Positions 34,301 through 53,315 of a DNA stretch of 53,315 nt are shown piece by piece. Source of the DNA: a virus; the IMG/VR virus record IMGVR_UViG_3300032087_005336, positions 1-53,315 of that record; one strand, 5' to 3'. The notes under the pieces were generated by a model. That model was not told the DNA's origin. It searched no databases and saw only the letters and a program-made list of their open reading frames with translations. Within the stretch, counting starts at the first letter, position 1, and each line of letters begins with the position of its first letter. A program made the translations under genes and the position numbers.

Positions 34301-37300
34301 TACGATAAATGGTTTTACAGATGCTAGTTTTCCAGGTTCTGCAGTTATTCTTGGTTGCCTATTATAGTTAATAATGTTTGTACAACCATATCCAACACCC
34401 TTGTTTTCTAAAAATACATTTGTAATAGTACCTCTAGCAACTGGTTCAACCTGCGGAGATACTGCGTAAATACTCTTCTTAGATGGTGTTACTTCTACAG
34501 TAATTTCTGGATATTTAAAATATTGTCTTCCAACACCAAAAGTTGTTAAGTCTTTATAGATGTTATTATCGTAATAATATGTACTTAATGTGTTTCCAAT
34601 TCCAATATCAGATAATTTAAATCTATTATCATCAACTTTAGTGACATAGTAACTTGAAGAACTTGTTAAACCTGAAATAGGTGTTGTTGTCGCATCATAA
34701 ACGATAATCTCACCATTACTAAATCCATGATTTGGAATGATAATATTGTTTGAATAAAAATCGATTGGAACAGATGATATATTTGGATCGTATGATACTC
34801 TCCTATAAGTGAAATCTTCTGATGAATTTGTAACTCTAATTTCGGAAAGTTTTTTCTTTTTCTGTAAGGCAACTAGCTTATGATCACCTACTCCAAATGC
34901 AGTCAGATCAATCCTGTTTTCTAAATTCTCAGCATCTCTTTCATTATTATGTAAAGTAAATGATGTATTATCAATTACACCAACATAATAGATTGATTTG
35001 TTTTTAAGACCTCCAATTTCATCTCTTCCAAAAGTATCATAAAGAACTTTTTCTCCTGGATAGAAATAATGATTTGATAAAGTTATGATGGTATCAGTTG
35101 TAATACCAACACCAAATTGAGTTGATGCATCAAATTTTACTTCATGAGTATAAGTTTCCATAACTGGAATTGCATCACAATTTGATCCATTAGCTCCACT
35201 AATTTTTACAGTTGGTGCATCAATATAATTAAATCCACCATTAATAACATTTGTTCCTACAATAGATCCTTTTATTACAAAATCTCCAGATGCATTAATA
35301 CCGCCATTTGCAACACCATCTGCATTTTCACCATCAAAAATTTCCAATGCTGGTGGACTAGTGATATCATAACCTTCACCACCAGACAATACAAAGACAT
35401 CCTCCAATTCACCATAAAAAATATTATTTTTTGATTTATAATTTAATATTTCAACACCATTTCTCAAAATTCCAATCTTTCCCGTTTTAGTTTCTTCAGG
35501 AACAATTTGATCAACTGGTGGAATAATTCGTTTTACAATTCTCTTTGACTTTAAAGTGAAAGGATCTTCAAGATTTAAAACTCTTTCAATATCGGAATAG
35601 TCTGAATAGTAGAAAGTATTATTGGTTACACTTCCCTCTACTGTAATATATTCCTTAGAATATACTCTGTTCAAACTTGTTGATAACTTAATTGTTTTAT
35701 TATCAACTACTGTTACATAATATCTGCCATTTGGTATACTTAGTTTATTAGTGTTTGGATCTCCAAAATCATCTTCTTCTGGTTCACTATAAATGATAGA
35801 ATCTCCAGTATAAAATGAATGAGTTTTTTCTGGAACCGTTGGTGTAGCATCGGCACCAATTTTTATATTTTTATTGTTTTGATTTGATGGTAAAGAAACT
35901 GAAAAAGTAATTCTTCTGTCATTTGTTGTCAGTTGTTCATTAGAATAATTAGGGATAGAAGAAGATGTTACAAATAATTCATCTCTTAAATCTTTAGGTC
36001 TATAAATGTTCTGGACATCGGAAGCATACTCATTTGCTTCAGGAAAAAATCTAAAATTGGCTTTATTGAGTTTTCTCTCTAAAGTAAATGTTTTTAATGT
36101 AGAATCAAAGTCTGTGATGCGAGAAGATGATATGATAACATAAGTAGATAGATCATTTCTAGAAACAACCTGAACATCATAACTTTCACCCGTTGAAGAC
36201 TTTAGAAAAAATCTATCATTTAATGTAATATCAAAACCATCTTGAAGAGTAATAAAATACTTTCTTTCAATTTCACTTACTAGTGAAATAGTATCAATGT
36301 TATATGTTGTTGCTACATTATAGGTCCAATCATTATATTTCTTACTTTGATCTTTTAGTCCTAAAGTATTAAACTTTACTGGATCATTGTCAAAGAAATA
36401 TGAATTATCATCAGGAATTAAGTCACTAAGTACACTTGTGATTCTAAAATATGCAGTGCTTTCATCATCTAAAGTTACATATCCATATCTCTTAGAGGAG
36501 ATTAAAGCTCCTCGGGGAATATCATTATTAGAATCTACTCTATAAAATTCGTTAACAGAATTATCACCAACTGAAATTGATCTTACAGTGCCATCTTCAT
36601 AATATACATTCAAATTTCTAGATGCGTCAAATCCTATACATGAATCTACATGTAAAACGGATGGTCTATTACCCTCAGCATCTTCTTCATAATCTTCTGT
36701 TACTCTTGTGGATGCAGTAACTTCAAACTTTCCAAAAACTGTTCCAGCTACTGAAATGTCTTTATCATAATCATTATCTAAGCTAGCAATATAATAAGTT
36801 TTTGTACCTCTTTGTATTCTTTCTACATTTGTAATAGTACCATAAGCAGTAATTGGCTCTTCTAGATCTTGGCTATTGGTTTCTCTCTGATAAATTGTTC
36901 TATTTAAGATTAAATCGGTATAATCAACATCATTATCAAGTGCTTCTAAGACTAAATCTCGTACTCTTCTATTTGATGAAGCAGAAGCTTCAAAAACACT
37001 ATCACTTGGACGAATAATTTCTACTTTTTTGTTGTATAAAGCATTAAATAGAATCTTAAATCCTTCTTCGGTTCCTTTTGAAGAATAAAAGTCACTTATT
37101 TGCTTATAAAATAGTCTAGAATTTAAATCTTCGGATAATTCTCTGCTCTCAAACCCTGGAGATACTTGCTTCTTTAATTTTGATAAGAATACATTTAAAA
37201 ATAATGCACTAAGATTTTCTACAGTAGAAAAAGAATAATGATAATCAGTTACTGACTCTGAAAAAATAATTTCATCACCATATTCACTAATTCCACTAAA

Positions 37301-43773: not shown

Positions 43774-44103
43774 TCAGTCGATGATGTACTCCATGGTGTT
43801 ACGATTGTCTGCAGATTCCCATGCACCGAAGAAAGAATCCCATGCCTGCTCATTATCAACGAAGGAGTCAATGTTGAGCATCTCACATACCCAATCGTAT
43901 GCCATATCTACGTCTGCATTTGTATCATTCACAAACGCAATCATCTGCCCCATGATGTCATCCCAGGTGGATTGCATTTCGGGGGAGAGAGGGAAGACTT
44001 GAGTTGCCATGTGTCGGTTGCTGTTGACTCTGTAATTGTAGGGAACGAATGGGTGGTTCAGAGTGTCACGAAGGGTTTCTGTAACACTCTGAAATAATAA
44101 CAT
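43774..44103 (-). CDS. Small acidic protein of unknown function
   Basis: A 109-residue protein starting MLLFQSVTETLRDTLNHPF. The start is set by the TGATG overlap with the upstream stop; a longer in-frame start would run through the end of a better-supported gene, and an internal start at MATQVFPLSPEM (44010) is the main alternative. The C-terminal half (VDMAYDWVCEMLNIDSFVDNEQAWDSFFGAWE) is acidic and helical. Unknown function; last gene of a two-gene unit with the leader cassette. Confidence 0.68.
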   Translation of the reverse strand: MLLFQSVTETLRDTLNHPFVPYNYRVNSNRHMATQVFPLSPEMQSTWDDIMGQMIAFVNDTNADVDMAYDWVCEMLNIDSFVDNEQAWDSFFGAWESADNRNTMEYIID

Positions 44104-44444
44104 CAAACCCCCACAACCATGCCAGACTGGAAAGGAACAACCTCCCAATCTTTCTTCAGGTTGTTGTACTGTTTGACGAACCAATCACCTGCCTTCTGAA
44201 ATACTTTCTCACCATCAATTGCGTGCTCTTGGAGAATAGCATTGAGACGAGACTTTGTGGTCATTGTTTGATGATCACCATCGAAGATTTCAATGTCATT
44301 CTCATAAACAATTGCGATGAGATTGCCGTGCAGATACACAGTGCTGCTGTTGTATTCTGCAGAATAATGCACAGAAGTGTTTGCAGATTTCCAGGTCTCG
44401 TTGTTAGAGATTGCCTGATTCATCTGCTGTTCGATCTTACGCAT
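44103..44444 (-). CDS. Small protein of unknown function behind leader cassette A
   Basis: A 113-residue protein (MRKIEQQMNQAISNNETWKS). Strand-like stretches (STVYLHGNLIAIVYENDIEIFDG) are followed by helices (TKSRLNAILQEHAIDGEKVFQKAGDWFVKQYNNL). Nothing points to an enzyme. Its ATG is preceded by the repeated leader cassette at 44445-44480, which places it in the early class. The stop overlaps the next start as TGATG. Confidence 0.78.
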   Translation of the reverse strand: MRKIEQQMNQAISNNETWKSANTSVHYSAEYNSSTVYLHGNLIAIVYENDIEIFDGDHQTMTTKSRLNAILQEHAIDGEKVFQKAGDWFVKQYNNLKKDWEVVPFQSGMVVGV

Positions 44445-44480
44445 CGGAGGTGTGTTCCTTTGACTCTTATAGATTACACC
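44445..44480 (-). promoter_or_regulatory. Repeated promoter/leader cassette, copy A
   Basis: On the minus strand GGTGTAATCTATAAGAGTC is followed by AAAGGAACACACCTCCG and then the ATG. It shares almost every base with copies B to E (48365, 49697, 50491, 53237). The TATAAG hexamer may be the -10 box; AAAGGA is the ribosome site. Confidence 0.75.
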
Positions 44481-44488
44481 ATTTTGGA

Positions 44489-44510
44489 TGCTGTGCCGTG
44501 TGCTTGTGCC
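44489..44510 (-). promoter_or_regulatory. Paired GGCACAGCA-type direct repeat upstream of cassette A
   Basis: On the minus strand GGCACAAGCA and GGCACAGCA, 12 bases apart. The same pair occurs upstream of cassette B. It lies about 15-35 bases upstream of the -10 region, a fitting place for an activator or operator. Confidence 0.5.
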
Positions 44511-44551
44511 AGTTCTATAAGTGGTTTTTTCTCTATACTTTCCTCACATAA

Positions 44552-44719
44552 TCACCAGAGTGAATCATACTTTGTGGAGAGATCTTCAATGTAAGTTTCA
44601 CACTTCTCATCCCCTTGCAGTTCAAATAACTTTTCCCAGTCAATCTGGTGGGGATTAAAGTCATCCATTGCTTCAATCTCAAGAGTGATGCGATACTTGG
44701 ACTTCTGTGCGTAAGGCAT
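44552..44719 (-). CDS. Small acidic protein, 55 residues
   Basis: It reads MPYAQKSKYRITLEIEAMDD ... HQIDWEKLFELQGDEKCETYIEDLSTKYDSLW. The ordered mix of strand (YRITLEIEA) and helix and the strong sigma70-like promoter 30 bases upstream support a real gene. The ribosome site is weak (AGAAGA). Unknown function; possibly an early host-takeover protein, by position only. Confidence 0.75.
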   Translation of the reverse strand: MPYAQKSKYRITLEIEAMDDFNPHQIDWEKLFELQGDEKCETYIEDLSTKYDSLW

Positions 44720-44748
44720 TGTTCTTCTGGTGATTTGACTGCTCAGTT

Positions 44749-44777
44749 ATCATAAACCATTCTGAGTTGATTGTCAA
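44749..44777 (-). promoter_or_regulatory. Sigma70-like early promoter of the 55-residue gene
   Basis: On the minus strand TTGACA (44772-44777), exactly 17 bases, TATGAT (44749-44754). The -35 box continues as TTGACAATCAAC, as at 43159-43187. Confidence 0.82.
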
Positions 44778-44832
44778 GAATACCACGAAGTGTTGCGATA
44801 TTCTTATGTATAAAATTTAGAATGATTTTGGA

Positions 44833-44840
44833 TATTTATG
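44833..44840 (-). promoter_or_regulatory. Possible late promoter (CATAAATA)
   Basis: Exact NATAAATA match on the minus strand, but 113 bases from the nearest downstream ATG (44719). It could give late expression of the same unit, or be a chance match in AT-rich DNA. Confidence 0.35.
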
Positions 44841-44871
44841 TCAGGGTTCTGAGATTTTTCTGATCTGGGTG

Positions 44872-44900
44872 TTGACTTTTTTGCGATCTGTCGGTATAAT
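44872..44900 (+). promoter_or_regulatory. Rightward sigma70-like promoter, opposite to all genes
   Basis: On the plus strand TTGACT (44872-44877), exactly 17 bases, TATAAT (44895-44900). No plus-strand gene follows. The transcript would start near 44907 and cross the gene-free region, then run antisense to the small genes beyond 45075 unless it ends before them. Confidence 0.72.
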
Positions 44901-44906
44901 GCACGC

Positions 44907-45026
44907 CAAGATCACAATAAGTAGAAGGATTTAGAAGACATTTAAAGAAGCATAAAATCACTGCAAAGATACTCTCAAGACCCTGCACAGTTACTGTCAA
45001 GAGTATTCCACAGGTTTTTCCACAAC
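44907..45026 (+). ncRNA. Candidate non-coding or origin-associated transcript
   Basis: The proposed RNA starts at the rightward promoter. Near its end ATACTCT and AGAGTAT can pair across about 25 bases, and GGTTTTTCC follows. The 3' end is a guess; the U-run is short and interrupted. The evidence is only a strong promoter with no gene behind it. Confidence 0.35.
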
Positions 45027-45074
45027 TTGTTAGAAAACACTCATATACGTTTTTAAATACATTTTTAATTGATT

Positions 45075-45239
45075 TTAACCCAATAATGGTACAATTTCAA
45101 CGTTTTTACACCCTAATTCTTTGACATGACGTTCCCAAAGCATAGCATCACGAACATCAAAGAATACTGCTTCTTGCTTACTCCAATACCCTGATTTGTT
45201 CTTGGGTTGTTGATACACTACACTGAACTTGTTGATCAT
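45075..45239 (-). CDS. Small protein overlapping the membrane protein gene, 54 residues
   Basis: It reads MINKFSVVYQQPKNKSGYWS and continues KQEAVFFDVRDAMLWERHVKELGCKNVEIVPLLG, a compact alpha/beta pattern typical of a real folded protein. It starts 62 bases inside the preceding gene in another frame. The alternation FFDVRDAMLWERHVKELGCKNVEIVPL fits a beta-alpha-beta unit. Unknown function. Last gene of a long operon running into the gene-free region. Confidence 0.78.
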   Translation of the reverse strand: MINKFSVVYQQPKNKSGYWSKQEAVFFDVRDAMLWERHVKELGCKNVEIVPLLG

Positions 45240-45408
45240 AGTTGACATCATTCCAATGACGAATTGCGTTTGCTACGATAGCAATGTTGGTAATAAGATA
45301 AGAGAGAAAGATTAACGAACGAATGATTGCAATCTTATCTGATTCTTTATCATCTGGTGTTGCTTTCTCTCCTAATGCTTTACACCATAATCTCCACACC
45401 TTTTTCAT
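45178..45408 (-). CDS. Small membrane protein, 76 residues
   Basis: It starts MKKVWRLWCKALGEKATPDD, a short amphipathic start, then has one clear transmembrane segment at about residues 29-50 (RSLIFLSYLITNIAIVANAI) and a short polar tail. I recall this type from other T4-like cyanophages, with no known role. The ATG begins right after the oxygenase stop. The 3' 62 bases also encode the start of the next protein. Confidence 0.78.
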   Translation of the reverse strand: MKKVWRLWCKALGEKATPDDKESDKIAIIRSLIFLSYLITNIAIVANAIRHWNDVNYDQQVQCSVSTTQEQIRVLE

Positions 45409-45933
45409 TTACGCATACACTATATTCAGAACTAATCTTAAATCTTCATCAGTACAATTTGTCCCTGTATGTTCATACGTATTAGGAAAGAATAATGCTC
45501 GATTTGCTTTACTTTTAAATTTACGAATCATTCCATTTTCATCTTTGATCTGTGTGTAACCATTGTTAGTGTTAATCATTAAAATACAGATCTTTAATGG
45601 AGCAGGGAATGATTGACCAGGAATTGAATCATCATCTGTTACATCAATATGATAAGGTTTCAAATACAACTTTTCTCCTTTGGGTGTTGCATTGACCTTA
45701 ATACGATAGATGCAATAGAGATCATTGATTTCATTGACGATGTTTAACATATCATCGGCAAAGTCTCCTTCTGGTTTATTCTCATCATAGAAACAATGAA
45801 CGAATTGTGGATAACCATCTCCATCATATACCGAACCATTGTTGTAATGCCATGGCACTTCATATGGTACGATTTCCGAAAGTTCAGAGAACACTTCTTC
45901 TGGGAGAAAGTTATCAACAACTTGAATGTTCAT
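45409..45933 (-). CDS. 2OG-Fe(II) oxygenase family protein
   Basis: A 174-residue protein of the prolyl-4-hydroxylase-like type common in cyanophages. It begins MNIQVVDNFLPEEVFSELSE, the usual N-terminal strand and helix. The iron ligands are H95-x-D97 (LKPYHIDVTDD) and H155 (NTYEHTGTNC), and R166 (DLRLVLNIVY) is the expected 2-oxoglutarate contact. The full double-stranded beta-helix core is therefore present. The substrate (protein side chain, nucleic acid base or small molecule) cannot be read from the sequence. Its start overlaps the upstream stop by ATGA. Confidence 0.88.
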   Translation of the reverse strand: MNIQVVDNFLPEEVFSELSEIVPYEVPWHYNNGSVYDGDGYPQFVHCFYDENKPEGDFADDMLNIVNEINDLYCIYRIKVNATPKGEKLYLKPYHIDVTDDDSIPGQSFPAPLKICILMINTNNGYTQIKDENGMIRKFKSKANRALFFPNTYEHTGTNCTDEDLRLVLNIVYA

Positions 45934-46142
45934 TGTGGATCAGAATAACGATGTTCTTGACTATGGTAACAATCATCTTCCAACAGAATAATTTCCGAGA
46001 AAGAGTGATTATAAACAACCATATTCACCTCTCTCAGTCTATCAGAAGATTGACCAATTGTAAAGGTGAGTGCGATTGAACACGAAAACTTTACAACCCC
46101 TTCGTGTCCTCGATAACTGATTTTTGTTCCTTCTGTATACAT
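45930..46142 (-). CDS. Small beta-barrel-like protein, 70 residues
   Basis: MYTEGTKISYRGHEGVVKFS then ALTFTIGQSSDRLREVNMVVYNHSFSEIILLEDD: the strand pattern with EG..ISY.GHEG.VKF resembles a small SH3-like barrel. No enzyme motif. It overlaps the oxygenase by ATGA and the preceding 54-residue gene by 52 bases. Unknown function. Confidence 0.75.
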   Translation of the reverse strand: MYTEGTKISYRGHEGVVKFSCSIALTFTIGQSSDRLREVNMVVYNHSFSEIILLEDDCYHSQEHRYSDPQ

Positions 46143-46255
46143 TGGCGATAGTGCAATTCGTTTTCTATTGTAATCAATCCATGAATAATTTCAGGATCCC
46201 AATTCACACATTCACACAAAGAATAAAGATGATCAAGTGCTTCCGAATAACGCAT
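46091..46255 (-). CDS. Small helical protein, 54 residues, overlapping both neighbours
   Basis: MRYSEALDHLYSLCECVNWD continues PEIIHGLITIENELHYRQCI and a charged tail. It overlaps the preceding gene by 23 bases and the following gene by 52. The good helical periodicity in a frame different from both neighbours supports it, but long overlaps at both ends keep the call moderate. Confidence 0.6.
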   Translation of the reverse strand: MRYSEALDHLYSLCECVNWDPEIIHGLITIENELHYRQCIQKEQKSVIEDTKGL

Positions 46256-46541
46256 GTTCCAATGGATTTGAGAAGTTTAATGGCATCGATGTGTAAGGTG
46301 TTGTATCTCTTACATCAACGATCTTTCCGACTTTCTTACTATCGATTGGGGCATAGTATTCTCGGGATTTGGGTTTGTAATATCCCCAGATTGTCCGCAC
46401 AGATTTATCACTCCCATGAAAAATATACCGACGAGAATGTAATAACCAAATCGAAACAGTGCTAGCATTGTGTTTCTCTACCTCGTAAGAATAACCATTG
46501 GGTGCATCATGTGGAAAATCAATTGGTAACTCATTTGTCAT
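46233..46541 (-). CDS. Small protein of unknown function, 102 residues
   Basis: MTNELPIDFPHDAPNGYSYE continues VEKHNASTVSIWLLHSRRYIFHGSDKSVRTIWGYYKPKSREYYAPI, a beta-rich soluble protein. Its start overlaps the upstream stop by ATGA. The aromatic and basic middle might bind nucleic acid, but this is a guess. No family recognised. Confidence 0.75.
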   Translation of the reverse strand: MTNELPIDFPHDAPNGYSYEVEKHNASTVSIWLLHSRRYIFHGSDKSVRTIWGYYKPKSREYYAPIDSKKVGKIVDVRDTTPYTSMPLNFSNPLEHALFGST

Positions 46542-46741
46542 GGATTGAAATCAGATGGTAATAAATTTCCAATCAATAAATCATGAATTTCTGATGTCTT
46601 CTCGTAATGATCTAATGCTCGATCTTTACAAATTTTTGACTCAGATAATAACATCTCATAAACATGAATTGGTTCAAGTCCTCTTTCTAAACATGTGCTG
46701 AACCATACACGAAGTTCTTGCCTTAATTCTTCATTGTTCAT
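46538..46741 (-). CDS. Small helical protein, 67 residues
   Basis: MNNEELRQELRVWFSTCLER continues GLEPIHVYEMLLSESKICKDRALDHYEKTSEIHDLL, an almost wholly helical soluble protein. ATGA overlaps link it to both neighbours. Unknown function. Confidence 0.75.
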   Translation of the reverse strand: MNNEELRQELRVWFSTCLERGLEPIHVYEMLLSESKICKDRALDHYEKTSEIHDLLIGNLLPSDFNP

Positions 46742-46860
46742 AGAAACTCCATGATGTAGTATTCACAAGTGATCTCTAATCGTTCTGCTTCTTGTTCAGC
46801 ATGTTCAATCAATTTCTCAAGTTCGGGAACTTCCAATTCGTAAAGTTTCTCGGTTTTCAT
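46738..46860 (-). CDS. Very small acidic helical protein, 40 residues
   Basis: MKTEKLYELEVPELEKLIEH then AEQEAERLEITCEYYIMEFL: one long charged helix, possibly a coiled coil. The main evidence is that its start and stop both sit in ATGA overlaps with the adjoining genes. Confidence 0.68.
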   Translation of the reverse strand: MKTEKLYELEVPELEKLIEHAEQEAERLEITCEYYIMEFL

Positions 46861-46997
46861 AGTTTGGCAGTGACTGAAATTACTTTGGCATTTGGATTGC
46901 GAGCAAGAGCAACTTGTCTTGCTTCTGCATAGTCACGGGCAATGACTTCTTCCGAAAATACAGTGCCCGCAACATAAAGTTTAACCTCGCACCTCAT
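46857..46997 (-). CDS. Small alpha/beta protein, 46 residues
   Basis: MRCEVKLYVAGTVFSEEVIA then RDYAEARQVALARNPNAKVISVTAKL, a strand-strand-helix-strand unit (beta strands with a helix RDYAEARQVALAR). I recall near-identical short proteins in several T4-like cyanophages, where they are uncharacterised. ATGA overlap with the next gene; 17-base overlap with the previous small frame. Confidence 0.75.
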   Translation of the reverse strand: MRCEVKLYVAGTVFSEEVIARDYAEARQVALARNPNAKVISVTAKL

Positions 46998-47097
46998 AAC
47001 TTGAAAGGAGTTTGTTAAACAATGCTGGTGTCCTTACAGCAAATTGATCCTCACAATCCCTTTGCTCCTCTAATGTCATTAACTGAAGTGCAGTCAT
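46981..47097 (-). CDS. Possible small protein, at least 38 residues
   Basis: The coding-like stretch DELNVLMTALQLMTLEEQRDCEDQFAVRTPALFNKLLSSYEVRG is helical and looks real, but the only in-frame ATG cuts off the natural start of the helix (KLTSDELNVL). A non-ATG start upstream, inside the preceding gene, is possible. A sigma70-like promoter (47190-47218) lies about 93 bases upstream. Confidence 0.45.
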   Translation of the reverse strand: MTALQLMTLEEQRDCEDQFAVRTPALFNKLLSSYEVRG

Positions 47098-47113
47098 CAG
47101 AACATTTAACTCA

Positions 47114-47305
47114 TCAGATGTGAGTTTGACTTTTGTGAATGAAACGGTCGAACTTTTCAAGACGATAACCCTCTTTGATTGCTTGATTGATTATATTGGA
47201 ATAAGAATGTGATGTCAATGGGATATACCGATGAACGAGGTAATCCTCACAATCCTCTGATAATGCTTCCAGTTGTTCATGCGTGAGATGGTCGAAGTTC
47301 ATCAT
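47114..47305 (-). CDS. Small protein, 63 residues
   Basis: MMNFDHLTHEQLEALSEDCE continues DYLVHRYIPLTSHSYSNIINQAIKEGYRLEKFDRF. Two ATGs lie in tandem and either may be used. Helical, soluble, no known family. An extended -10 promoter lies just upstream, and a perfect sigma70-like promoter is embedded in its coding sequence. Confidence 0.7.
   Translation of the reverse strand: MMNFDHLTHEQLEALSEDCEDYLVHRYIPLTSHSYSNIINQAIKEGYRLEKFDRFIHKSQTHI
47190..47218 (-). promoter_or_regulatory. Sigma70-like promoter inside a coding sequence
   Basis: On the minus strand TTGACA (47213-47218), exactly 17 bases, TATAAT (47190-47195): a full consensus match. It would start transcription of the genes from 47097 downwards. 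Confidence 0.7.
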
Positions 47306-47328
47306 AGGTGAAAGTGCTACCTGTTCTA

Positions 47329-47337
47329 ATTATATCA
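47329..47337 (-). promoter_or_regulatory. Extended -10 promoter (TGATATAAT)
   Basis: On the minus strand TG-A-TATAAT, 23 bases before the ATG at 47305, with no recognisable -35 box. It overlaps the end of the preceding gene. Confidence 0.5.
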
Positions 47338-47338
47338 C

Positions 47339-47587
47339 CTATTCAACACTCTCTAGCAGATCGTTAAGCATTTCTTCATCATACAAATCCTTAATCTCTT
47401 CCGTAATATCTGCCTGATCCCACATCTCCATATTTTGCATGATACTATCAACAGCAAAAGTAACGAGAGTATCCATATCCATGCCATCCACAATCATGCT
47501 GGCATAGTTTTCTTTCAGTTTGTCAAGTTGATCTTCAGTCAGTTTTTTCATGGTGTTAGGATCAGTGGGAAAAGACACAAAGGACAT
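47339..47587 (-). CDS. Small acidic helical protein, 82 residues
   Basis: The start MSFVSFPTDPNTMKKLTEDQ is set by the TGATG overlap with the upstream stop; MKKLTEDQLDKLKENY (47551) is an alternative. The rest (YASMIVDGMDMDTLVTFAVDSIMQNM then an acidic tail) is helical. Unknown function. Confidence 0.72.
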   Translation of the reverse strand: MSFVSFPTDPNTMKKLTEDQLDKLKENYASMIVDGMDMDTLVTFAVDSIMQNMEMWDQADITEEIKDLYDEEMLNDLLESVE

Positions 47588-47718
47588 CAATAATCATAAT
47601 CAGAAGAAAGGTAATCGTTCATGTTGAAATCTTCGACATCCTCAATTTCTGGGACATCGTAAATCTCACCTGGCACATCATAAATCAAATGATGCAGAAA
47701 CTGTTCGTCATTGTTCAT
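47587..47718 (-). CDS. Very small acidic protein, 43 residues
   Basis: MNNDEQFLHHLIYDVPGEIY then DVPEIEDVEDFNMNDYLSSDYDY. It has the internal repeat YDVPGEIYDVPEIED and is almost without basic residues, so it may be disordered or a DNA mimic; this is composition-based only. It overlaps both neighbours by ATGA and TGATG. Confidence 0.7.
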   Translation of the reverse strand: MNNDEQFLHHLIYDVPGEIYDVPEIEDVEDFNMNDYLSSDYDY

Positions 47719-47900
47719 AGTTCAACCTCCCAATCTTTGTCGTTAGTGAGTGATACCCAGAAGTGGTTTTTACCATTGGCGGATGTTAGAAACACCCGAT
47801 TACCTTTGTCTTGTTCAATGATACATTCGGGATCATTGTTCATCAGGTTGGAAAACCTGTTCTTTGCTTTCTTAGATTTGGGTGTTACAAATGCCGTCAT
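47715..47900 (-). CDS. Small protein, 61 residues
   Basis: MTAFVTPKSKKAKNRFSNLM continues NNDPECIIEQDKGNRVFLTSANGKNHFWVSLTNDKDWEVEL, with a basic start and a small antiparallel sheet. Overlaps the upstream gene by 29 bases and the downstream one by ATGA. Unknown function. Confidence 0.72.
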   Translation of the reverse strand: MTAFVTPKSKKAKNRFSNLMNNDPECIIEQDKGNRVFLTSANGKNHFWVSLTNDKDWEVEL

Positions 47901-48033
47901 GATTCACAATGCAGTTGGTTTCAATAATTGTTGTGATTGTTTGATCGTCGTTGATAAAATCATACTGCACCTTGTCTGGTGCAATTTGTGCTTTACCAAC
48001 AAGAATTGCAGTTGCAAGCATAAACTCAATCAT
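47872..48033 (-). CDS. Small protein, 53 residues
   Basis: MIEFMLATAILVGKAQIAPD continues KVQYDFINDDQTITTIIETNCIVNHDGICNTQI. I chose the ATG at 48033 because a longer reading (from 48216) would run through the end of the cassette-led gene upstream. The hydrophobic start is a short membrane-like or signal-like segment. No clear ribosome site, so translation may depend on the upstream gene. Confidence 0.6.
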   Translation of the reverse strand: MIEFMLATAILVGKAQIAPDKVQYDFINDDQTITTIIETNCIVNHDGICNTQI

Positions 48034-48055
48034 TGTGGAGTTGTTGTTAATTAGA

Positions 48056-48364
48056 TCAGAAAACAAGAGACAACATTGATGCTCGCATGTTGCTGGAGAG
48101 GAACAGTGAACCCCAAGAATCGAAATTGAACCATCCTTTGAGATTGAAAGTTCCAGGAACTTCTTTACACTCAGACAGTGCTTTCTTGGGGAACCAGATA
48201 GTGTGACGTGGAACAATAATTGAACCGAATTGAATTGCTTTTTCGGTTTCCTTGATCTTCACAACTGGCAGTAAGTTGAAGTGATGCTTTCTGCCGAGGT
48301 TGATGATGCAAACGTCATCCTGATCGATGCAGGTGTGGACTTCGTTGATGCTTGCGGTTTTCAT
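48056..48364 (-). CDS. Small protein behind leader cassette B, 102 residues
   Basis: MKTASINEVHTCIDQDDVCI continues INLGRKHHFNLLPVVKIKETEKAIQFGSIIVPRHTIWFPKKAL, a beta-rich soluble protein. The perfect fit of the ATG to the repeated leader cassette supports the start. First gene of a long early operon (down to about 45075). Unknown function. Confidence 0.76.
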   Translation of the reverse strand: MKTASINEVHTCIDQDDVCIINLGRKHHFNLLPVVKIKETEKAIQFGSIIVPRHTIWFPKKALSECKEVPGTFNLKGWFNFDSWGSLFLSSNMRASMLSLVF

Positions 48365-48400
48365 GAGGTGTGTTCCTCTCGACTTCTATAGAATACACGA
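48365..48400 (-). promoter_or_regulatory. Repeated promoter/leader cassette, copy B
   Basis: On the minus strand TCGTGTATTCTATAGAAGTC then GAGAGGAACACACCTC directly before the ATG. Differs from copies C and D mainly at GAGAGG versus AAAGG in the ribosome site. Confidence 0.76.
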
Positions 48401-48407
48401 TCCTGGG

Positions 48408-48429
48408 TGCTGTGCCCATATGCTGTGCC
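48408..48429 (-). promoter_or_regulatory. Perfect GGCACAGCA direct repeat upstream of cassette B
   Basis: Two identical 9-mers on the minus strand at 48421-48429 and 48408-48416, 13 bases apart, just upstream of the cassette. The same motif, less perfect, lies upstream of cassette A. Confidence 0.55.
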
Positions 48430-48482
48430 ACCTTGCCAACTGGTCCCTGGGTTTCAAATAATCCATAATTTCATGCGACAAA

Positions 48483-48511
48483 GGGAGCACTAGGTCATCC
48501 CTAGCACTCCC
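48483..48511 (-). terminator. Stem-loop terminator after the 68-residue gene
   Basis: A 12-bp stem (GGGAGTGCTAGG with CCTAGTGCTCCC, two wobble pairs) and a 5-base loop, 19 bases after the stop at 48531. Followed on the minus strand by only TTTG, so it is moderate as a classical terminator. Confidence 0.65.
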
Positions 48512-48530
48512 AATGCACAAAAATTAGTTT

Positions 48531-48737
48531 TTAACTATGATTGTGCATAAATTCGTCAAGTGTGTAACTTTCATTATCAGTGTCAGTTTCTTTAACTAAC
48601 TCTTCAATGGTAAGAGTATCTAACCACTCAAGATGTTCTTCCATTGTCATATCAACATCTGGGTCAAAATCATCATGACACAGATATTCATATTCATTCT
48701 GAAGTGCATCAATTAGTTGTGCTCTAGTGTACTTCAT
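48531..48737 (-). CDS. Small acidic protein, 68 residues
   Basis: It starts MKYTRAQLIDALQNEYEYLC, set by the ATGA overlap with the upstream gene rather than by the longer in-frame ATG. The rest (DDFDPDVDMTMEEHLEWLDTLTIEELVKETDTDNESYTLDEF) is strongly acidic. Last gene before the hairpin at 48483-48511. Unknown function. Confidence 0.76.
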   Translation of the reverse strand: MKYTRAQLIDALQNEYEYLCHDDFDPDVDMTMEEHLEWLDTLTIEELVKETDTDNESYTLDEFMHNHS

Positions 48738-48958
48738 ACTTTCGCATCCTGATAATACCAACCCAGTGCTTTGTAAGTTGTAATTAAATCTTGATGAATT
48801 GCATTGACTTCTGGATCAACATAATCCTCCACAATATCCCAATCATTAGTATTCACTTTCCCATCAAGATATAAAGGAGTTGAAAACAATGTACCCTCAG
48901 AATCGATGGAATACGCGTTACCTAGTTGTTCTGAGACGATGATGATTAGATCGGACAT
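48734..48958 (-). CDS. Small protein, 74 residues
   Basis: MSDLIIIVSEQLGNAYSIDS continues EGTLFSTPLYLDGKVNTNDWDIVEDYVDPEVNAIHQDLITTYKALGWYY. It opens with a hydrophobic strand and has a helical C-terminus; no membrane span is convincing. ATGA overlap downstream. Unknown function. Confidence 0.75.
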   Translation of the reverse strand: MSDLIIIVSEQLGNAYSIDSEGTLFSTPLYLDGKVNTNDWDIVEDYVDPEVNAIHQDLITTYKALGWYYQDAKV

Positions 48959-49002
48959 TAGTCGGAAAGAATAGAAGAACGTTTGTGAGTTGCTTTGGTC
49001 AT
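48958..49002 (-). CDS. Possible 14-residue mini-gene (MTKATHKRSSILSD)
   Basis: The short frame fills the 60-base gap between two genes and its stop overlaps the next ATG as TAATG, the coupling seen elsewhere. No clear ribosome site. It may be a translated leader that couples the next gene rather than a functional peptide. Confidence 0.3.
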   Translation of the reverse strand: MTKATHKRSSILSD

Positions 49003-49018
49003 TATTGTATGGTTGTTG

Positions 49019-49177
49019 TTAGTTAGTGGGAAAGTTTTTGCAGACTGCATCACACAAGATCCTCACAAGTTCTTCATCATAATTGACATCATACTCTGCA
49101 AAGTATTCGGTGATGATACAATCAATGTCCTCCATGAGTTGTTCACGTTGAGTCAACATTTCAAGTTTGTCAGTCAT
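49019..49177 (-). CDS. Small acidic helical protein, 52 residues
   Basis: MTDKLEMLTQREQLMEDIDC continues IITEYFAEYDVNYDEELVRILCDAVCKNFPTN, an all-helical acidic protein. Its start sits in a TGATG overlap with the preceding gene. Three cysteines are scattered and do not form a metal motif. Unknown function. Confidence 0.74.
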   Translation of the reverse strand: MTDKLEMLTQREQLMEDIDCIITEYFAEYDVNYDEELVRILCDAVCKNFPTN

Positions 49178-49458
49178 CAAACTGCCTCCTGTTGTTGTTG
49201 CATAAGTTGCTCTTCAGTTACTTCATCTACACATTCTTGAATGACTTGGTAGATGTAATCAATGTTGCCAACATCATCAAAGATACGTTCAAGAACCTCA
49301 GGATCTTCTACAACATTATCATAATCAATCTCACCATCTTCATCCTTCAAATGACAATCTTCCTTGGTGTAAATCCATGCGGCACAGTATGCAGTTTCCC
49401 CTTGTTCTTCGATGAGAGTGTTAACGCGATCTTTCAGTTGTTGGAGAGTGTAGTTCAT
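49177..49458 (-). CDS. Small acidic protein, 93 residues
   Basis: MNYTLQQLKDRVNTLIEEQG continues ETAYCAAWIYTKEDCHLKDEDGEIDYDNVVEDPEVLERIFDDV. The N-terminal helix, a short sheet and the highly acidic C-terminal half (ending EEQLMQQQQEAV) fit a small folded early protein. Unknown function. Second gene after cassette C. Confidence 0.76.
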   Translation of the reverse strand: MNYTLQQLKDRVNTLIEEQGETAYCAAWIYTKEDCHLKDEDGEIDYDNVVEDPEVLERIFDDVGNIDYIYQVIQECVDEVTEEQLMQQQQEAV

Positions 49459-49498
49459 GATCAGTTTGAGTGCTTGAAGATGGAAAAAGAAGTTTTTG

Positions 49499-49696
49499 TT
49501 AGATTGTCTGCCATTCTTGTGCCTCCTTGATGTCAGAATCCCAATACTTTCTCATGATGCTGTTAATAACTGGATACCAGGGTTCGTTAGCACTAGGATA
49601 CCCACATTCTTGTGCTTGACGAAGAAACTTTAGGATGCAAGTCTCTTCATCTTGAGTGAAATTAACTCGATTGAGAGTGTAACCAGTGTCAGTCAT
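49499..49696 (-). CDS. Small protein behind leader cassette C, 65 residues
   Basis: MTDTGYTLNRVNFTQDEETC continues ILKFLRQAQECGYPSANEPWYPVINSIMRKYWDSDIKEAQEW. Soluble, mixed helix. The ATG is preceded by the repeated cassette (49697-49730). Unknown function. Confidence 0.76.
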   Translation of the reverse strand: MTDTGYTLNRVNFTQDEETCILKFLRQAQECGYPSANEPWYPVINSIMRKYWDSDIKEAQEWQTI

Positions 49697-49730
49697 GAGT
49701 TGTGTTCCTTTGACTCTTATAGAATACAGG
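49697..49730 (-). promoter_or_regulatory. Repeated promoter/leader cassette, copy C
   Basis: On the minus strand CCTGTATTCTATAAGAGTC then AAAGGAACACAACTC directly before the ATG. The upstream GGCACA-type repeat of copies A and B is absent here. Confidence 0.75.
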
Positions 49731-49753
49731 AGAATGGGGTCGTTTCAACCGAT

Positions 49754-49780
49754 GGTGGACACTTCTCTCAACTGTCCACC
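49754..49780 (-). terminator. Stem-loop over the stop codon of the 66-residue gene
   Basis: An 8-bp stem (GGTGGACA with TGTCCACC), with the TGA of the gene (49768-49770) in its loop. No U-tract. It lies just upstream of cassette C, like hairpins before cassettes B and D. Confidence 0.5.
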
Positions 49781-49968
49781 TCCTCTCGCATTTGTTTAAC
49801 AATAGCAGACAAACTATCTGCTACATCAGACATCGCAGACCGCGAATATCCTGTTGCATAAGCATAACCTTGATCAGTACGATCTGGTGCTTCATGGCAA
49901 ACATTGACCGCATTATTCAGTCGGTCAATTAACATCACCAGTTGATCATCAATAGGAAAAATGTTCAT
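49768..49968 (-). CDS. Small protein, 66 residues
   Basis: MNIFPIDDQLVMLIDRLNNA continues VNVCHEAPDRTDQGYAYATGYSRSAMSDVADSLSAIVKQM: two helices joined by a polar, tyrosine-rich linker. Its ATG overlaps the upstream stop as TGATG. Unknown function. Confidence 0.74.
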   Translation of the reverse strand: MNIFPIDDQLVMLIDRLNNAVNVCHEAPDRTDQGYAYATGYSRSAMSDVADSLSAIVKQMREEVDS

Positions 49969-50156
49969 CAGTCGAGGAGAGAAATGTCGTAGGAAGTAAA
50001 GTTAGGGTATTGTTTTTCTACCCATTTTGATAACTTTGTGTTCTGTGATTTAACTCCTTTGTGTGTTTTTGGTTTGGTGGGCATCACTTTGAGGAATGAC
50101 AATGATCCCTCGTCCGTTGTTACTTGGATCTGATAAGTTGCAGTGGTTGTTTTCAT
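49968..50156 (-). CDS. Small basic protein, 62 residues
   Basis: MKTTTATYQIQVTTDEGSLS continues FLKVMPTKPKTHKGVKSQNTKLSKWVEKQYPNFTSYDISLLD: strands at the start, then a basic middle. ATGA overlap with the upstream membrane protein and TGATG with the next gene. A second frame through the same place (50050-50247) is poorer. Unknown function. Confidence 0.72.
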   Translation of the reverse strand: MKTTTATYQIQVTTDEGSLSFLKVMPTKPKTHKGVKSQNTKLSKWVEKQYPNFTSYDISLLD

Positions 50157-50266
50157 CGAGGTTGAACAACTTCGGCAGCATTGTAGAGACCATCAGCAAT
50201 AAATTGACGTGCTGTGGTGTTAGTCCAAAGAAGAACACCAACTCCACAAATTAACAAGAACTTCAT
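50153..50266 (-). CDS. Very small membrane protein, 37 residues
   Basis: MKFLLICGVGVLLWTNTTAR then QFIADGLYNAAEVVQPR. Residues 2-15 form one short hydrophobic segment that could be a membrane anchor or a signal. I recall near-identical peptides in T4-like cyanophages. ATGA overlap with the next gene. Confidence 0.76.
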   Translation of the reverse strand: MKFLLICGVGVLLWTNTTARQFIADGLYNAAEVVQPR

Positions 50267-50319
50267 GTGAATTTGCCTCAATTCAGAATAAGAACGTTGT
50301 TTGGAAAATGTTTTGATCA

Positions 50320-50490
50320 TCAGAGATCACCATACTCCATGAAAGTGTGACCCAACCAATCCTCAACATAAGCATAGGAATCAGATTCACAGTGCATAGA
50401 ATAGCACACATCTGCTGCTCTCTCGGCACCATAAACGATTTCACGTTCACCGAGAGCAGGGCAGGCAACGAGGTAGGTTCCAGTGGTCAT
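50320..50490 (-). CDS. Small protein behind leader cassette D, 56 residues
   Basis: The start MTTGTYLVACPALGEREIVY is fixed by the repeated cassette; an upstream in-frame ATG would lie inside it. The rest (GAERAADVCYSMHCESDSYAYVEDWLGHTFMEYGDL) is soluble and acidic. Unknown function. Confidence 0.76.
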   Translation of the reverse strand: MTTGTYLVACPALGEREIVYGAERAADVCYSMHCESDSYAYVEDWLGHTFMEYGDL

Positions 50491-50524
50491 GAGTGGTGTT
50501 CCTTTGACTCTTCTAAGATACACG
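50491..50524 (-). promoter_or_regulatory. Repeated promoter/leader cassette, copy D
   Basis: On the minus strand CGTGTATCTTAGAAGAGTC then AAAGGAACACCACTC directly before the ATG. It departs from the others in the -10 area (TATCTTAGAAG versus TATTCTATAAG). Confidence 0.7.
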
Positions 50525-50528
50525 ATCT

Positions 50529-50559
50529 AGAGTGCCGTGCATATTTCGTGTGACACTCT
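50529..50559 (-). terminator. Stem-loop directly after the membrane protein stop
   Basis: AGAGTG pairs with CACTCT across a 19-base loop with some inner pairing. It begins 1 base after the stop at 50561 and runs up to cassette D. No U-tract. Confidence 0.45.
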
Positions 50560-50560
50560 G

Positions 50561-50878
50561 TCATCTGTCCCGCCAGTGTTGAGTTTTGTCTAAAATCCAT
50601 CCTAGAGCACCAATTGCAAGGAGAGGTACAACAATCCACCAGTATTCTACTGCTAACCATATCATAAACAGAACGGCACAAAGTATTAACAATCCATTAG
50701 TATCTCCCATGGTAGATGAACCCCATCCATCCACTTCATGTAAATCTTGGACTTCACCTTCACTTACACAATATATGTCACAAATTTTTACTCTTGCAGT
50801 GTTCCAAGTTGGTGCTTGAACTTCTACTTCATAGATTCCAACATTATGCTCTTTGATTGTTGCTTTCCAAGTTGACAT
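50561..50878 (-). CDS. Small membrane protein with soluble N-terminal domain, 105 residues
   Basis: It starts MSTWKATIKEHNVGIYEVEV; GGAGG 9 bases before this ATG fixes the start. Residues 1-55 form a small strand-helix-strand domain (VEVQAPTWNTARVKICDIYCVSEGEVQDLHEV). Residues about 62-95 hold two closely spaced hydrophobic segments (GLLILCAVLFMIWLAVEYWW, IVVPLLAIGALGWIL), so it is probably a hairpin membrane protein with the N-terminus in the cytoplasm. I recall the type from cyanophages; function unknown. Confidence 0.8.
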   Translation of the reverse strand: MSTWKATIKEHNVGIYEVEVQAPTWNTARVKICDIYCVSEGEVQDLHEVDGWGSSTMGDTNGLLILCAVLFMIWLAVEYWWIVVPLLAIGALGWILDKTQHWRDR

Positions 50879-50915
50879 CAATCAGTCCTCCCAATGTTCG
50901 GAATTGTAGCACAGT

Positions 50916-51482
50916 TCAGGTGGCAAGTCTATACCCATAAGCAGTTTTTTGTTTCCCATTTAACATCATTGTGAAGTTTCCTCGGTTGATGTTCCTCTCT
51001 CTACAGAACTGTGATATATTCGTGCCTTCAATAATTTCTCCAGTTTCTATATCAATCACCTTAAAAGTTTTAGAGCAGGATATTGCTGATGCGGCAGAAC
51101 CTTTTAATCTGTGATCTTTCATCACATCTTCAGTTAATGAGTGAAACCCAAGTTTTCTTTTAACACATTCTTTGCCCCAAGATTTCAATATATTTCTTGT
51201 ATCTTCACTTGCAATTCTACCACTTACTCCATCACCACCATCAGTTCTGTTTCTTAAAATGCCCGTGTTATTGTCCTTTCTTCCATATAGGGCAATCATA
51301 TACATTTCGTGCTTCTTTGCATCATCATCCGAAAGATTTGTCTTTAGATATATTATTCTTGTTCTATCTTTTGGGGGTTTTACATCCCATCTGCCCCTAT
51401 TTGTAACTCGTTTTCCTTTACCCTTACCAATGTAGTAGGGCGTTCCATCTTCACGCAAATATGCGTAAGTGTAGTATTCCAT
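50916..51482 (-). CDS. GIY-YIG homing endonuclease
   Basis: A 188-residue protein. The N-terminal nuclease domain begins YYTYAYLREDGTPYYIGKGK: YTY and YYIG form the GIY-YIG signature, followed by R31 or R42 and E59 as likely catalytic arginine and glutamate. The glycine-rich loop RTDGGDGVSGR precedes a linker, and the C-terminus (NISQFCRERNINRGNFTMMLNGKQKTAYGYRL) is a NUMOD/IENR1-like helix-turn-helix DNA-binding module typical of free-standing homing endonucleases. The gene sits alone between two early units, has its own late promoter 22 bases upstream, and follows a terminator, so it looks like a mobile insert. Confidence 0.88.
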   Translation of the reverse strand: MEYYTYAYLREDGTPYYIGKGKGKRVTNRGRWDVKPPKDRTRIIYLKTNLSDDDAKKHEMYMIALYGRKDNNTGILRNRTDGGDGVSGRIASEDTRNILKSWGKECVKRKLGFHSLTEDVMKDHRLKGSAASAISCSKTFKVIDIETGEIIEGTNISQFCRERNINRGNFTMMLNGKQKTAYGYRLAT

Positions 51483-51504
51483 CTGCTTTAATCGTGGTTA
51501 TTAG

Positions 51505-51512
51505 TATTTATT
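51505..51512 (-). promoter_or_regulatory. T4-type late promoter (AATAAATA) of the GIY-YIG gene
   Basis: Exact consensus on the minus strand, 22 bases before the ATG at 51482, directly behind the terminator U-tract. It is the only well-placed exact late promoter in the early region. Confidence 0.75.
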
Positions 51513-51536
51513 AAAAAAGGGATCTTACGACCCCTT
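51513..51536 (-). terminator. Rho-independent terminator of the deaminase unit
   Basis: On the minus strand AAGGG and CCCTT pair around a 10-base loop and run into TTTTTT. It ends the operon that starts at 53236. Confidence 0.8.
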
Positions 51537-51571
51537 CGTTTGCTTAAACAACCACGATTAAGCATCAGTAT

Positions 51572-51955
51572 TTAGTCCCAACGTTCATAACTCCATTTGT
51601 TATTTGTCACGGAGTAATATACATCTTTAATGCCACAATCTCTCAGGTATGCTTCACATACTGGACACGGGCGAGCAATCCTTAATTCATCCTGATTGTG
51701 TCCACCCAAACGTGCAACAATGATCTTATCACCTTCCTCCCTTGCTTTCACTAATGCAGACAATTCTGCATGAAGAAAGATCTTTTGTGGTCGTCCTACT
51801 TTTTGTGCCCAATGTGCTTGAAGTGGATGAGATTTCTTCTCATTGTTAGTAGCACAGACAATTACTCGATTCTTTTTGAGTAGAATAGCACCAACTTTCT
51901 TCTTGGAAGGTGATGATGCTGCGATCTCAGTTGCAAGTTTGAAGAGGTTTTCCAT
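51572..51955 (-). CDS. Cytidine/deoxycytidylate deaminase family protein
   Basis: A 127-residue zinc enzyme-like protein starting MENLFKLATEIAASSPSKKK; this start is set by the TGATG overlap with the preceding gene. The zinc site is complete: H62-A63-E64 (FLHAELSALVKA), with E64 as proton shuttle, and P96-C97-P98-V99-C100 (ARPCPVCEAYLRDCGIKDVYYS). The length and order of motifs fit the CMP/dCMP deaminase fold, but T4 dCMP deaminase is longer, so the substrate (dCMP, cytidine or other) stays open. Deamination of dCMP would feed thymidylate supply. Last gene of its operon. Confidence 0.85.
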   Translation of the reverse strand: MENLFKLATEIAASSPSKKKVGAILLKKNRVIVCATNNEKKSHPLQAHWAQKVGRPQKIFLHAELSALVKAREEGDKIIVARLGGHNQDELRIARPCPVCEAYLRDCGIKDVYYSVTNNKWSYERWD

Positions 51956-52362
51956 CAACATTCATCCGATTTGATACACGACGATTGTGCATAGGGATCT
52001 TCATCATTACACCAGAAATCTTCCCAATCAGAATTACTTGCTACCCCAACATTCTTCTCTTCGTAGTCATTTACGATTTTTCGATACATTTGCTGGGTCC
52101 AACCATCGTTGTAGGGTGAGTTCGCGTGAATCAATGCCTCATGGTATTCTTCTTCACTAATCAGGGAACGTGGAGGCAAACCATTCAACAAATCAAGAAG
52201 ATTCTGACACTTGTTTGAATACTTCTGGAAATATGCAAGAGAACTTTCTACTTCATTCTTGATGTCACGATACAACTCATCGGGTGTAGTATCTTCATCA
52301 CCAATGTAATCAAAGATTGCATCATTCAGACGTTCACGTCGTTGCTCTGAATACTCTTTCAT
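51955..52362 (-). CDS. Conserved-looking acidic protein of unknown function, 135 residues
   Basis: It starts MKEYSEQRRERLNDAIFDYI, set by the ATGA overlap with the membrane protein gene; a longer in-frame start lies inside that gene and adds an unlikely cysteine-rich tail. The middle (ELYRDIKNEVESSLAYFQKYSNKCQNLLDLLNGL) is helical, followed by an acidic C-terminus with tryptophans (DWEDFWCNDEDP). I recall similar proteins in T4-like cyanophages. Unknown function. Confidence 0.78.
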   Translation of the reverse strand: MKEYSEQRRERLNDAIFDYIGDEDTTPDELYRDIKNEVESSLAYFQKYSNKCQNLLDLLNGLPPRSLISEEEYHEALIHANSPYNDGWTQQMYRKIVNDYEEKNVGVASNSDWEDFWCNDEDPYAQSSCIKSDEC

Positions 52363-52613
52363 TGAAAAACTCCGAATAGTTTGGTTGAAGAAATTGCAAG
52401 TAGAAATGTTAGCATAATGACAACATCCCAAGATTTAGTTCTGATGAAGAATGGAATAGAGATTGCATCAGCAATAAAGTGCATTACAACCCCTATTGTA
52501 ACATTAACATGAAGAACAACAAAATAGGCAAGGATAACCAGGATTGACCCGATTATCCTGCCCACAGTATCAACAGGCAAGGGCACCTTCAGGAATAGTT
52601 TCTTGCTTTCCAT
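52359..52613 (-). CDS. Small multi-spanning membrane protein, 84 residues
   Basis: It starts MESKKLFLKVPLPVDTVGRI, within the 3' part of the preceding gene (44-base overlap); a start nine bases upstream (52622) is also possible. Two to three hydrophobic segments follow (GSILVILAYFVVLHVNV, TIGVVMHFIADAISIPFFI, WDVVIMLTFLLAISS), with positive charges between them. No enzyme motif. I recall this small membrane protein from cyanophages; function unknown. Confidence 0.78.
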   Translation of the reverse strand: MESKKLFLKVPLPVDTVGRIIGSILVILAYFVVLHVNVTIGVVMHFIADAISIPFFIRTKSWDVVIMLTFLLAISSTKLFGVFQ

Positions 52614-53004
52614 AGTTGTCATCCCAACTGCGAGTATTGTAGCAGATCCAACTGCCATTGCGGAAAATGTATCCGTATTCTTCACCATCTTCGATGAATT
52701 GCTTCAGGTTTTTATCAACCCGAGGAGGGCAATCCTCACCACGTCCGCTGTAGTATTGTGGACCGTATTCTTCAGATTCTTTATTCTCCATCACATATGG
52801 AGCAAGTTGCTTACCAGTCCAACGATCTTTTGTCCAGATAGATGAACAATCACCACCATCAATCAGTTCAGAAACTTTCTCTTTTGTTGTGTAATGTGTG
52901 TTCAGGATGCGACCAGTCCACTCAGGATAACCATCCCAGTGCTGGTAAATGCTGAGAATAGATTTGTCAGCAAGTTCAATACCAATGCGAGAACGAGTGC
53001 CCAT
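52570..53004 (-). CDS. Conserved phage protein of the MGTRSRIGI type, 144 residues
   Basis: The start MGTRSRIGIELADKSILSIYQHWDGYPEWTGRIL is the signature of a widespread small phage and bacterial protein family without assigned function. The pattern (strand, HWDGYP turn, helix, GGDCSSIW) is intact, and the C-terminal part (YIFRNGSWICYNTRSWDDNY) is also conserved-looking. The position in an early operon suggests an accessory role. No ribosome site is clear. Confidence 0.82.
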   Translation of the reverse strand: MGTRSRIGIELADKSILSIYQHWDGYPEWTGRILNTHYTTKEKVSELIDGGDCSSIWTKDRWTGKQLAPYVMENKESEEYGPQYYSGRGEDCPPRVDKNLKQFIEDGEEYGYIFRNGSWICYNTRSWDDNYGKQETIPEGALAC

Positions 53005-53044
53005 AATGAAGAAGAATTAGGTGAAAAGATGAACGAGGTTGTTG

Positions 53045-53236
53045 TCAGTCCCAGTCAAAAGTTGGGATCTTTGCAAGTGCTTCCTGTGCCCATTTTTCAG
53101 AATGAACACCAGCAATCCACGAAGTTTCAATCTGAGTTGGTTGATCACCACAACCAAATTGTGGACCGAGATCAGTCTTACGACCGACCCACATACGTTG
53201 ACCAGTAGTGAGGCAGGATGCTTGGGAAAAGATCAT
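53045..53236 (-). CDS. Small protein behind leader cassette E, 63 residues
   Basis: MIFSQASCLTTGQRMWVGRK continues TDLGPQFGCGDQPTQIETSWIAGVHSEKWAQEALAKIPTFDWD. The cassette fixes the start; an upstream in-frame ATG lies inside it. It has a tryptophan-rich sheet and a C-terminal helix. First gene of the operon that ends with the deaminase. Unknown function. Confidence 0.76.
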   Translation of the reverse strand: MIFSQASCLTTGQRMWVGRKTDLGPQFGCGDQPTQIETSWIAGVHSEKWAQEALAKIPTFDWD

Positions 53237-53270
53237 TGGTGTGTCCCTTTGACTTCTATAGAATACATCA
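53237..53270 (-). promoter_or_regulatory. Repeated promoter/leader cassette, copy E
   Basis: On the minus strand TGATGTATTCTATAGAAGTC then AAAGGGACACACCA directly before the ATG. Upstream lies a small stem-loop (GGCAC with GTGCC, 53277-53300). Confidence 0.75.
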
Positions 53271-53315
53271 CTGAGAGGCACCTACAAGGGTCTGTGTGCC
53301 ACTTGTTTCACCGTC

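Follow-up and report, generated by a model that had tools for sequence, protein, structure and literature searches.

A palindrome-bearing cassette in front of unrelated small genes of T4-like marine cyanophages, a probable early promoter of the Kyanoviridae

T4 middle promoters carry a MotA box, not palindromic, near -30, with an extended -10 box and no -35 box. NtcA-activated cyanobacterial promoters carry a palindromic site, GTAN8TAC, near -41, a -10 box TAN3T and no -35 box. RegA of T4 has its sites around the AUG, in AU-rich sequence. PeSL (promoter early stem-loop) elements are said to have been described in T4-type phages by Arbiol in 2010 and Comeau in 2014, works that PMC4503421 cites. 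A novel regulatory element for early-gene transcription was reportedly found in Syn9 and P-TIM40 by Doron et al. in 2016 (ISME J 10:1437); it is said to be conserved among T4-like cyanophages and to depart from the T4 paradigm. The motif analysed here is not given in the literature searched on related subjects, a search that covered works other than these three. Cyanomyoviruses are without alt, modA, modB, motA and asi and, given those missing genes, their early genes are thought to use the unmodified host polymerase; S-PM2 and Syn9 had been credited with sigma-70-like motifs, S-RSM4 had yielded none, and the exact mechanism of early and middle transcription was called unclear as of 2010 (PMC2984593, a review of that year). 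S-PM2 has a host-like early promoter and stem loops (Puxty 2015, PMC4503421).

The window is the whole stretch of DNA that was analysed, a virus record of 53,315 bases; among annotated relatives, Synechococcus phage S-SCSM1 (Kyanoviridae) is the nearest to it in DNA sequence. It carries five copies of a cassette that is probably an early promoter of the Kyanoviridae, used by the host RNA polymerase together with a predicted palindrome-bound activator. The parts of the five copies and the genes behind them are as follows; leaders run from the predicted +1 to the base preceding the ATG.

44445..44464, minus strand: copy 1, leader (ATG 44444)
44471..44476, minus strand: copy 1, -10 box TAATCT
44505..44528, minus strand: copy 1, upstream palindrome, left half degenerate, AAAACCACTT-ATAG-AACTGGCACA
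44103..44444, minus strand: gene behind copy 1, Kyano_Gp96 (PF23790), family match, E 3.5e-42
48365..48383, minus strand: copy 2, leader (ATG 48364)
48390..48395, minus strand: copy 2, -10 box TATTCT
48424..48447, minus strand: copy 2, upstream palindrome, GGGACCAGTTGGCAAGGTGGCACA, 28 nt 5' of the -10 box
48056..48364, minus strand: gene behind copy 2, without family match
49697..49714, minus strand: copy 3, leader (ATG 49696)
49721..49726, minus strand: copy 3, -10 box TATTCT
49755..49779, minus strand: copy 3, upstream palindrome, GTGGACAGTTGAGAGAAGTGTCCAC
49499..49696, minus strand: gene behind copy 3, without family match
50491..50508, minus strand: copy 4, leader (ATG 50490)
50515..50520, minus strand: copy 4, -10 box TATCTT, a variant that tells TATNNT from TATARR
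50549..50572, minus strand: copy 4, upstream palindrome, CGGGACAGATGACAGAGTGTCACA, 28 nt 5' of the -10 box
50320..50490, minus strand: gene behind copy 4, phrog_25733, family match
53237..53253, minus strand: copy 5, leader (ATG 53236)
53260..53265, minus strand: copy 5, -10 box TATTCT
53295..53304, minus strand: copy 5, right half of the palindrome, AAGTGGCACA; the left half is interrupted by the window end
53045..53236, minus strand: gene behind copy 5, without family match

Both the position of the five copies before these ATGs and the unrelatedness of the proteins behind them, as claimed in a preliminary description, were borne out: the five genes share no family (PF23790, phrog_25733, three without match). 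With a position-weight matrix of the core (-16 to +20), trained only on copies outside the window, the five cores score 47.2, 41.2, 39.1, 34.8 and 31.6 bits; the best of 100 dinucleotide-shuffled windows reaches 14.2 bits and the next-best window position 12.6 bits. TGTATTCTATARRAGTC is matched without mismatch in three copies, with one mismatch at 44444 and with three at 50490; AAAGGAACACACC is matched with 0-2 mismatches in all five. With up to three mismatches, AAAGGAACACACC alone is expected 16 times and found 16 times, which is weak evidence. Significance comes from both halves at fixed spacing, either half singly being weak evidence. A sixth match, with three mismatches, at 36534 on the plus strand was rejected as chance. 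No known RNA family was found in the window with Rfam.

The anatomy was derived from 214 non-redundant copies, +1 being set as the G of AGTC. Training copies had first been gathered by an exact 17-mer, so that this set is still biased towards the 17-mer, the threshold for the 214 copies permitting many departures from it. The repeat of 34-36 bases of the preliminary description is real, but the whole module spans about 85 bp (palindrome, spacer, -10 box, start region, leader, ATG); conservation reaches about -65, and the palindrome there had been overlooked. The -10 box is TATNNT at -12 to -7: A at -11 is found in 100% of the copies, T at -10 in 99% and T at -7 in 99%, positions -9 and -8 being free. 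Its hexamers are TATTCT (102 copies), TATATT (52), TATTAT (21), TATTGT (13) and rarer forms, directly preceded by TG in most copies. The string TATARR, stressed previously, is not the -10 box, because the variants TATCTT, TATTAT and TATATT alter it and retain TATNNT. The earlier statement that no usual -35 box is shared holds: the -35 region is low in information and a TTG near -37 to -31 is present in 98 of the 214 copies (about 46%). Of the two hexamers of a canonical sigma-70 promoter, the -10 box is present, its A (-11) and T (-7) included, and TTGACA at -35 is not a regular feature.

The upstream palindrome is imperfect, 24-25 bp long (TGTGNCASTT N4-5 AASTGNCACA), starts at -64 to -66 and is centred near -53. 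Its best scores in the 214 copies are mostly 12-18 of 18 (8-11 in shuffled sequence); it is weak in copies 1 and 4 of the window. Covariation across the whole upstream region gives only a partial palindrome signal, since its two halves stand 4 or 5 nt apart and different registers are superimposed. The palindrome and the -10 box are separated by about 28-29 nt in which no -35 box recurs reliably. In Syn9, S-SCSM1, Syn33, ACG-2014d, S-PM2, P-TIM40 and the window taken together, a TATAAT-like box follows the palindrome at 28 and 29 nt in 17 and 29 cases, respectively, and in about 6 at most other distances; this peak rests on the pooled genomes, the window alone being too short for it, and no peak at 28-29 nt is seen in the reversed sequence of the same set. 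Between 48 and 55 kb of P-TIM40 there are several TATAAT-like boxes with the palindrome 28-29 nt ahead of them.

Three genomes left out when the distance rule was set give the same result. Composites at 28-30 nt number 40 in P-SSM2 (other distances: mean 14.3, maximum 21), 33 in P-HM2 (mean 15.6, maximum 22) and 18 in S-RSM4 (mean 9.5, maximum 15), and 6 in the negative control T4 (mean 6.7, maximum 11); palindromes are counted on both strands in these genome scans, as in the reversed control, which entails some double counting, and the threshold for the test genomes is loose, individual sites within structural genes being probably chance. Two of the Prochlorococcus phages, P-TIM40 and P-SSM2, have another leader and mostly TATAAT as -10 box, with the palindrome at an unchanged distance. 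About fifteen composites of palindrome and TATAAT lie at approximately 53-69 kb of P-SSM2 (NC_006883); in several of them a terminator-like hairpin with its T-run occupies precisely the interval that separates the palindrome from the -10 box. Palindrome and TATAAT also occur outside the early island, at 64323 and 67290 in S-SCSM1 and at 127492 and 148742 in Syn9, in front of a peptidase gene, cobS and gp183; the promoter type is thus not confined to the small-gene cluster.

These data bear on a simpler reading, that of plain sigma-70 early promoters for which the host RNA polymerase is enough; the palindrome would then be what remains of a stem-loop or terminator belonging to the upstream gene, as in PeSL elements. 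The mean spacer energy is -4.06 (-2.58 in shuffled sequence). Strong spacer hairpins, found in 34 of the 214 copies and in several of these with a T-run just ahead of the -10 box, speak in favour of this reading, as do similar hairpins in P-SSM2 and the host-like early promoter and stem loops of S-PM2 (Puxty 2015, PMC4503421). Such a hairpin with T-run resembles an intrinsic terminator set within the promoter and is a minority feature. It is, however, separate from the palindrome and optional; no T-run follows the palindrome itself, whose distance to the -10 box is constant across phages with different -10 boxes. Constancy in spite of differing -10 boxes and leaders would fit a protein contacting RNA polymerase, not a terminator of the upstream gene. 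The simpler reading is unlikely as a general account; given the TTG near -35 in about 46% of the copies, some of these may need no more than a plain sigma-70 promoter. The palindrome could instead work as a hairpin once transcribed from upstream. Its fixed distance speaks for a dedicated recogniser acting on DNA, the first of two levels proposed in the preliminary description.

The second level was RNA. The presumed start is followed by a leader that places the ATG usually 16-21 nt downstream of +1, is A/C-rich (A 0.40, C 0.26, G 0.22, T 0.12) and contains a Shine-Dalgarno-like stretch in 160 of the 214 copies. Conservation of GAGTCAAAGGAA, around and after the presumed start, nearly matches that of the -10 box and goes beyond usual promoter needs, which would suit a RegA-like translational regulator, or an RNA factor of the host, that binds the leader AGTCAAAGGAACACACC. 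Against this, no leader structure above the level of shuffled sequence was found; conservation begins upstream of any plausible start site, with the start region at a fixed distance from the -10 box; and Prochlorococcus phages retain the palindrome/-10 architecture with quite different leaders. The A/C-rich leader also differs from a RegA operator, an AU-rich site around the AUG. Control at the RNA level is therefore highly improbable.

IMG/VR viral contigs contain the exact 17-mer in at least 119 stretches; in nearly all of the matches listed, a leader of similar kind and then an ATG come after it. The motif search proposed in the preliminary description, extended from the window to other phages, gave the 79-base consensus in 260 of 50,697 phage records, all of them from Synechococcus or Prochlorococcus phages or cyanophages. 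In 84,980 species of bacteria and archaea the 22-mer was matched once, in a contig with an identical counterpart among the IMG/VR viral contigs; a host origin of the cassette was rejected on this ground, the cassette being phage sequence, not a host promoter family. The contig, L125 (NZVD01000053.1), is filed under a Rhodopirellula MAG and equals the viral contig over the 8,000 bases compared: it is a misbinned phage contig bearing a cyanophage cassette.

In the complete genomes, the high-scoring copies share a strand and fall within one small-gene region. S-SCSM1 has six, at 219.7-226.5 kb and, past the circle origin, at 1.5 kb; Syn9 has five in a small-ORF island at 46.3-53.1 kb (+1 at 46354, 47269, 48623, 51065 and 53061); the core matrix finds about five in Syn33 and about three in ACG-2014d. 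No copy was found in T4, nor with the full matrix in the reversed control. The annotated start of Syn9 gp73, 48608, sits within a cassette; the in-frame ATG at 48641, directly past the leader, is the likelier start.

The preliminary description had also seen a copied expression module. A module in front of unrelated early-region genes is what was found; its mobile copying would have to be deduced. Recombination between cassettes, with exchange of gene blocks, might have spread the copies, an origin compatible with the promoter reading: the 274 usable copies of 304 precede 71 downstream-gene clusters, and the gp96 orthologue bears several cassette classes (most of about 45 occurrences retain such a promoter, core and leader class varying). 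In many contigs, for example L051, L101, L116 and L123, the usual core ahead of the gp96 orthologue is exchanged for CTATAATAAAGACATCAGGGGG, a cassette of a second class whose leader is longer. Yet homology breaks between contigs amount to 0.83 at cassettes vs 0.87 at other gene starts of the same island, so that spread by this route is rather improbable. PeSL-like shuffling at cassettes was rejected, breakpoints not being enriched there, including with cassettes masked; the island regions are plastic everywhere, and cassettes as preferred exchange points are thus unsupported.

In the favoured reading, that of an early promoter of the Kyanoviridae, the TATNNT box, usually preceded directly by TG and with little or no -35 box, would be recognised by the RNA polymerase of the host carrying the housekeeping sigma factor. 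A protein on the 24-25-bp palindrome near -53, 28-29 nt ahead of the -10 box, would compensate for the missing -35 box. The activator is predicted to come from the host or to be injected with the virion, since early promoters have to be active ahead of any phage protein synthesis. The RNA would begin at or near AGTC, its short A/C-rich leader, usually with AAGGA as a Shine-Dalgarno-like stretch, ending at the ATG. There is about an even chance that all T4-like marine cyanophages share one early system, in which a host or virion protein on TGTGNCASTT N4-5 AASTGNCACA at a fixed helical position replaces the -35 contact and one factor activates all early genes. If this is true, that one factor would be a single point for host resistance. 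The sharp consensus and the fixed-distance palindrome provide a rule for finding early genes in uncultured cyanophages, which also covers promoters outside the early island; the consensus makes the search for the activator directly approachable.

Among known systems, NtcA-activated promoters likewise have a palindromic site upstream of the -10 box without a -35 box; GTAN8TAC near -41 is unlike the cassette palindrome in sequence and position. T4 middle promoters share with the cassette an extended -10 box and an activator-type site (here predicted) that replaces the -35 box; they differ by a non-palindromic MotA box near -30. Cyanomyoviruses, moreover, are without motA and asi (PMC2984593). 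The likeness to PeSL elements lies in the early promoter (here predicted) with a stem-loop, in the many copies and in the hypervariable regions of small genes of unknown function, where the cassette too is located. The cassette differs in that its constant upstream feature is a palindrome without T-run at a fixed distance; a strong spacer hairpin is found in 34 of 214 copies, so that a terminator stem-loop does not belong to every element, and recombination breakpoints show no excess over other gene starts. The closest likeness is to the element of Doron et al.: Syn9 holds five cassette copies and P-TIM40 has the palindrome/-10 architecture. The cassette is for this reason taken to be, with good probability, that early element or the core of it. 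The window contributes a further member, and the fixed palindrome/-10 distance and the S-RSM4 result may add detail.
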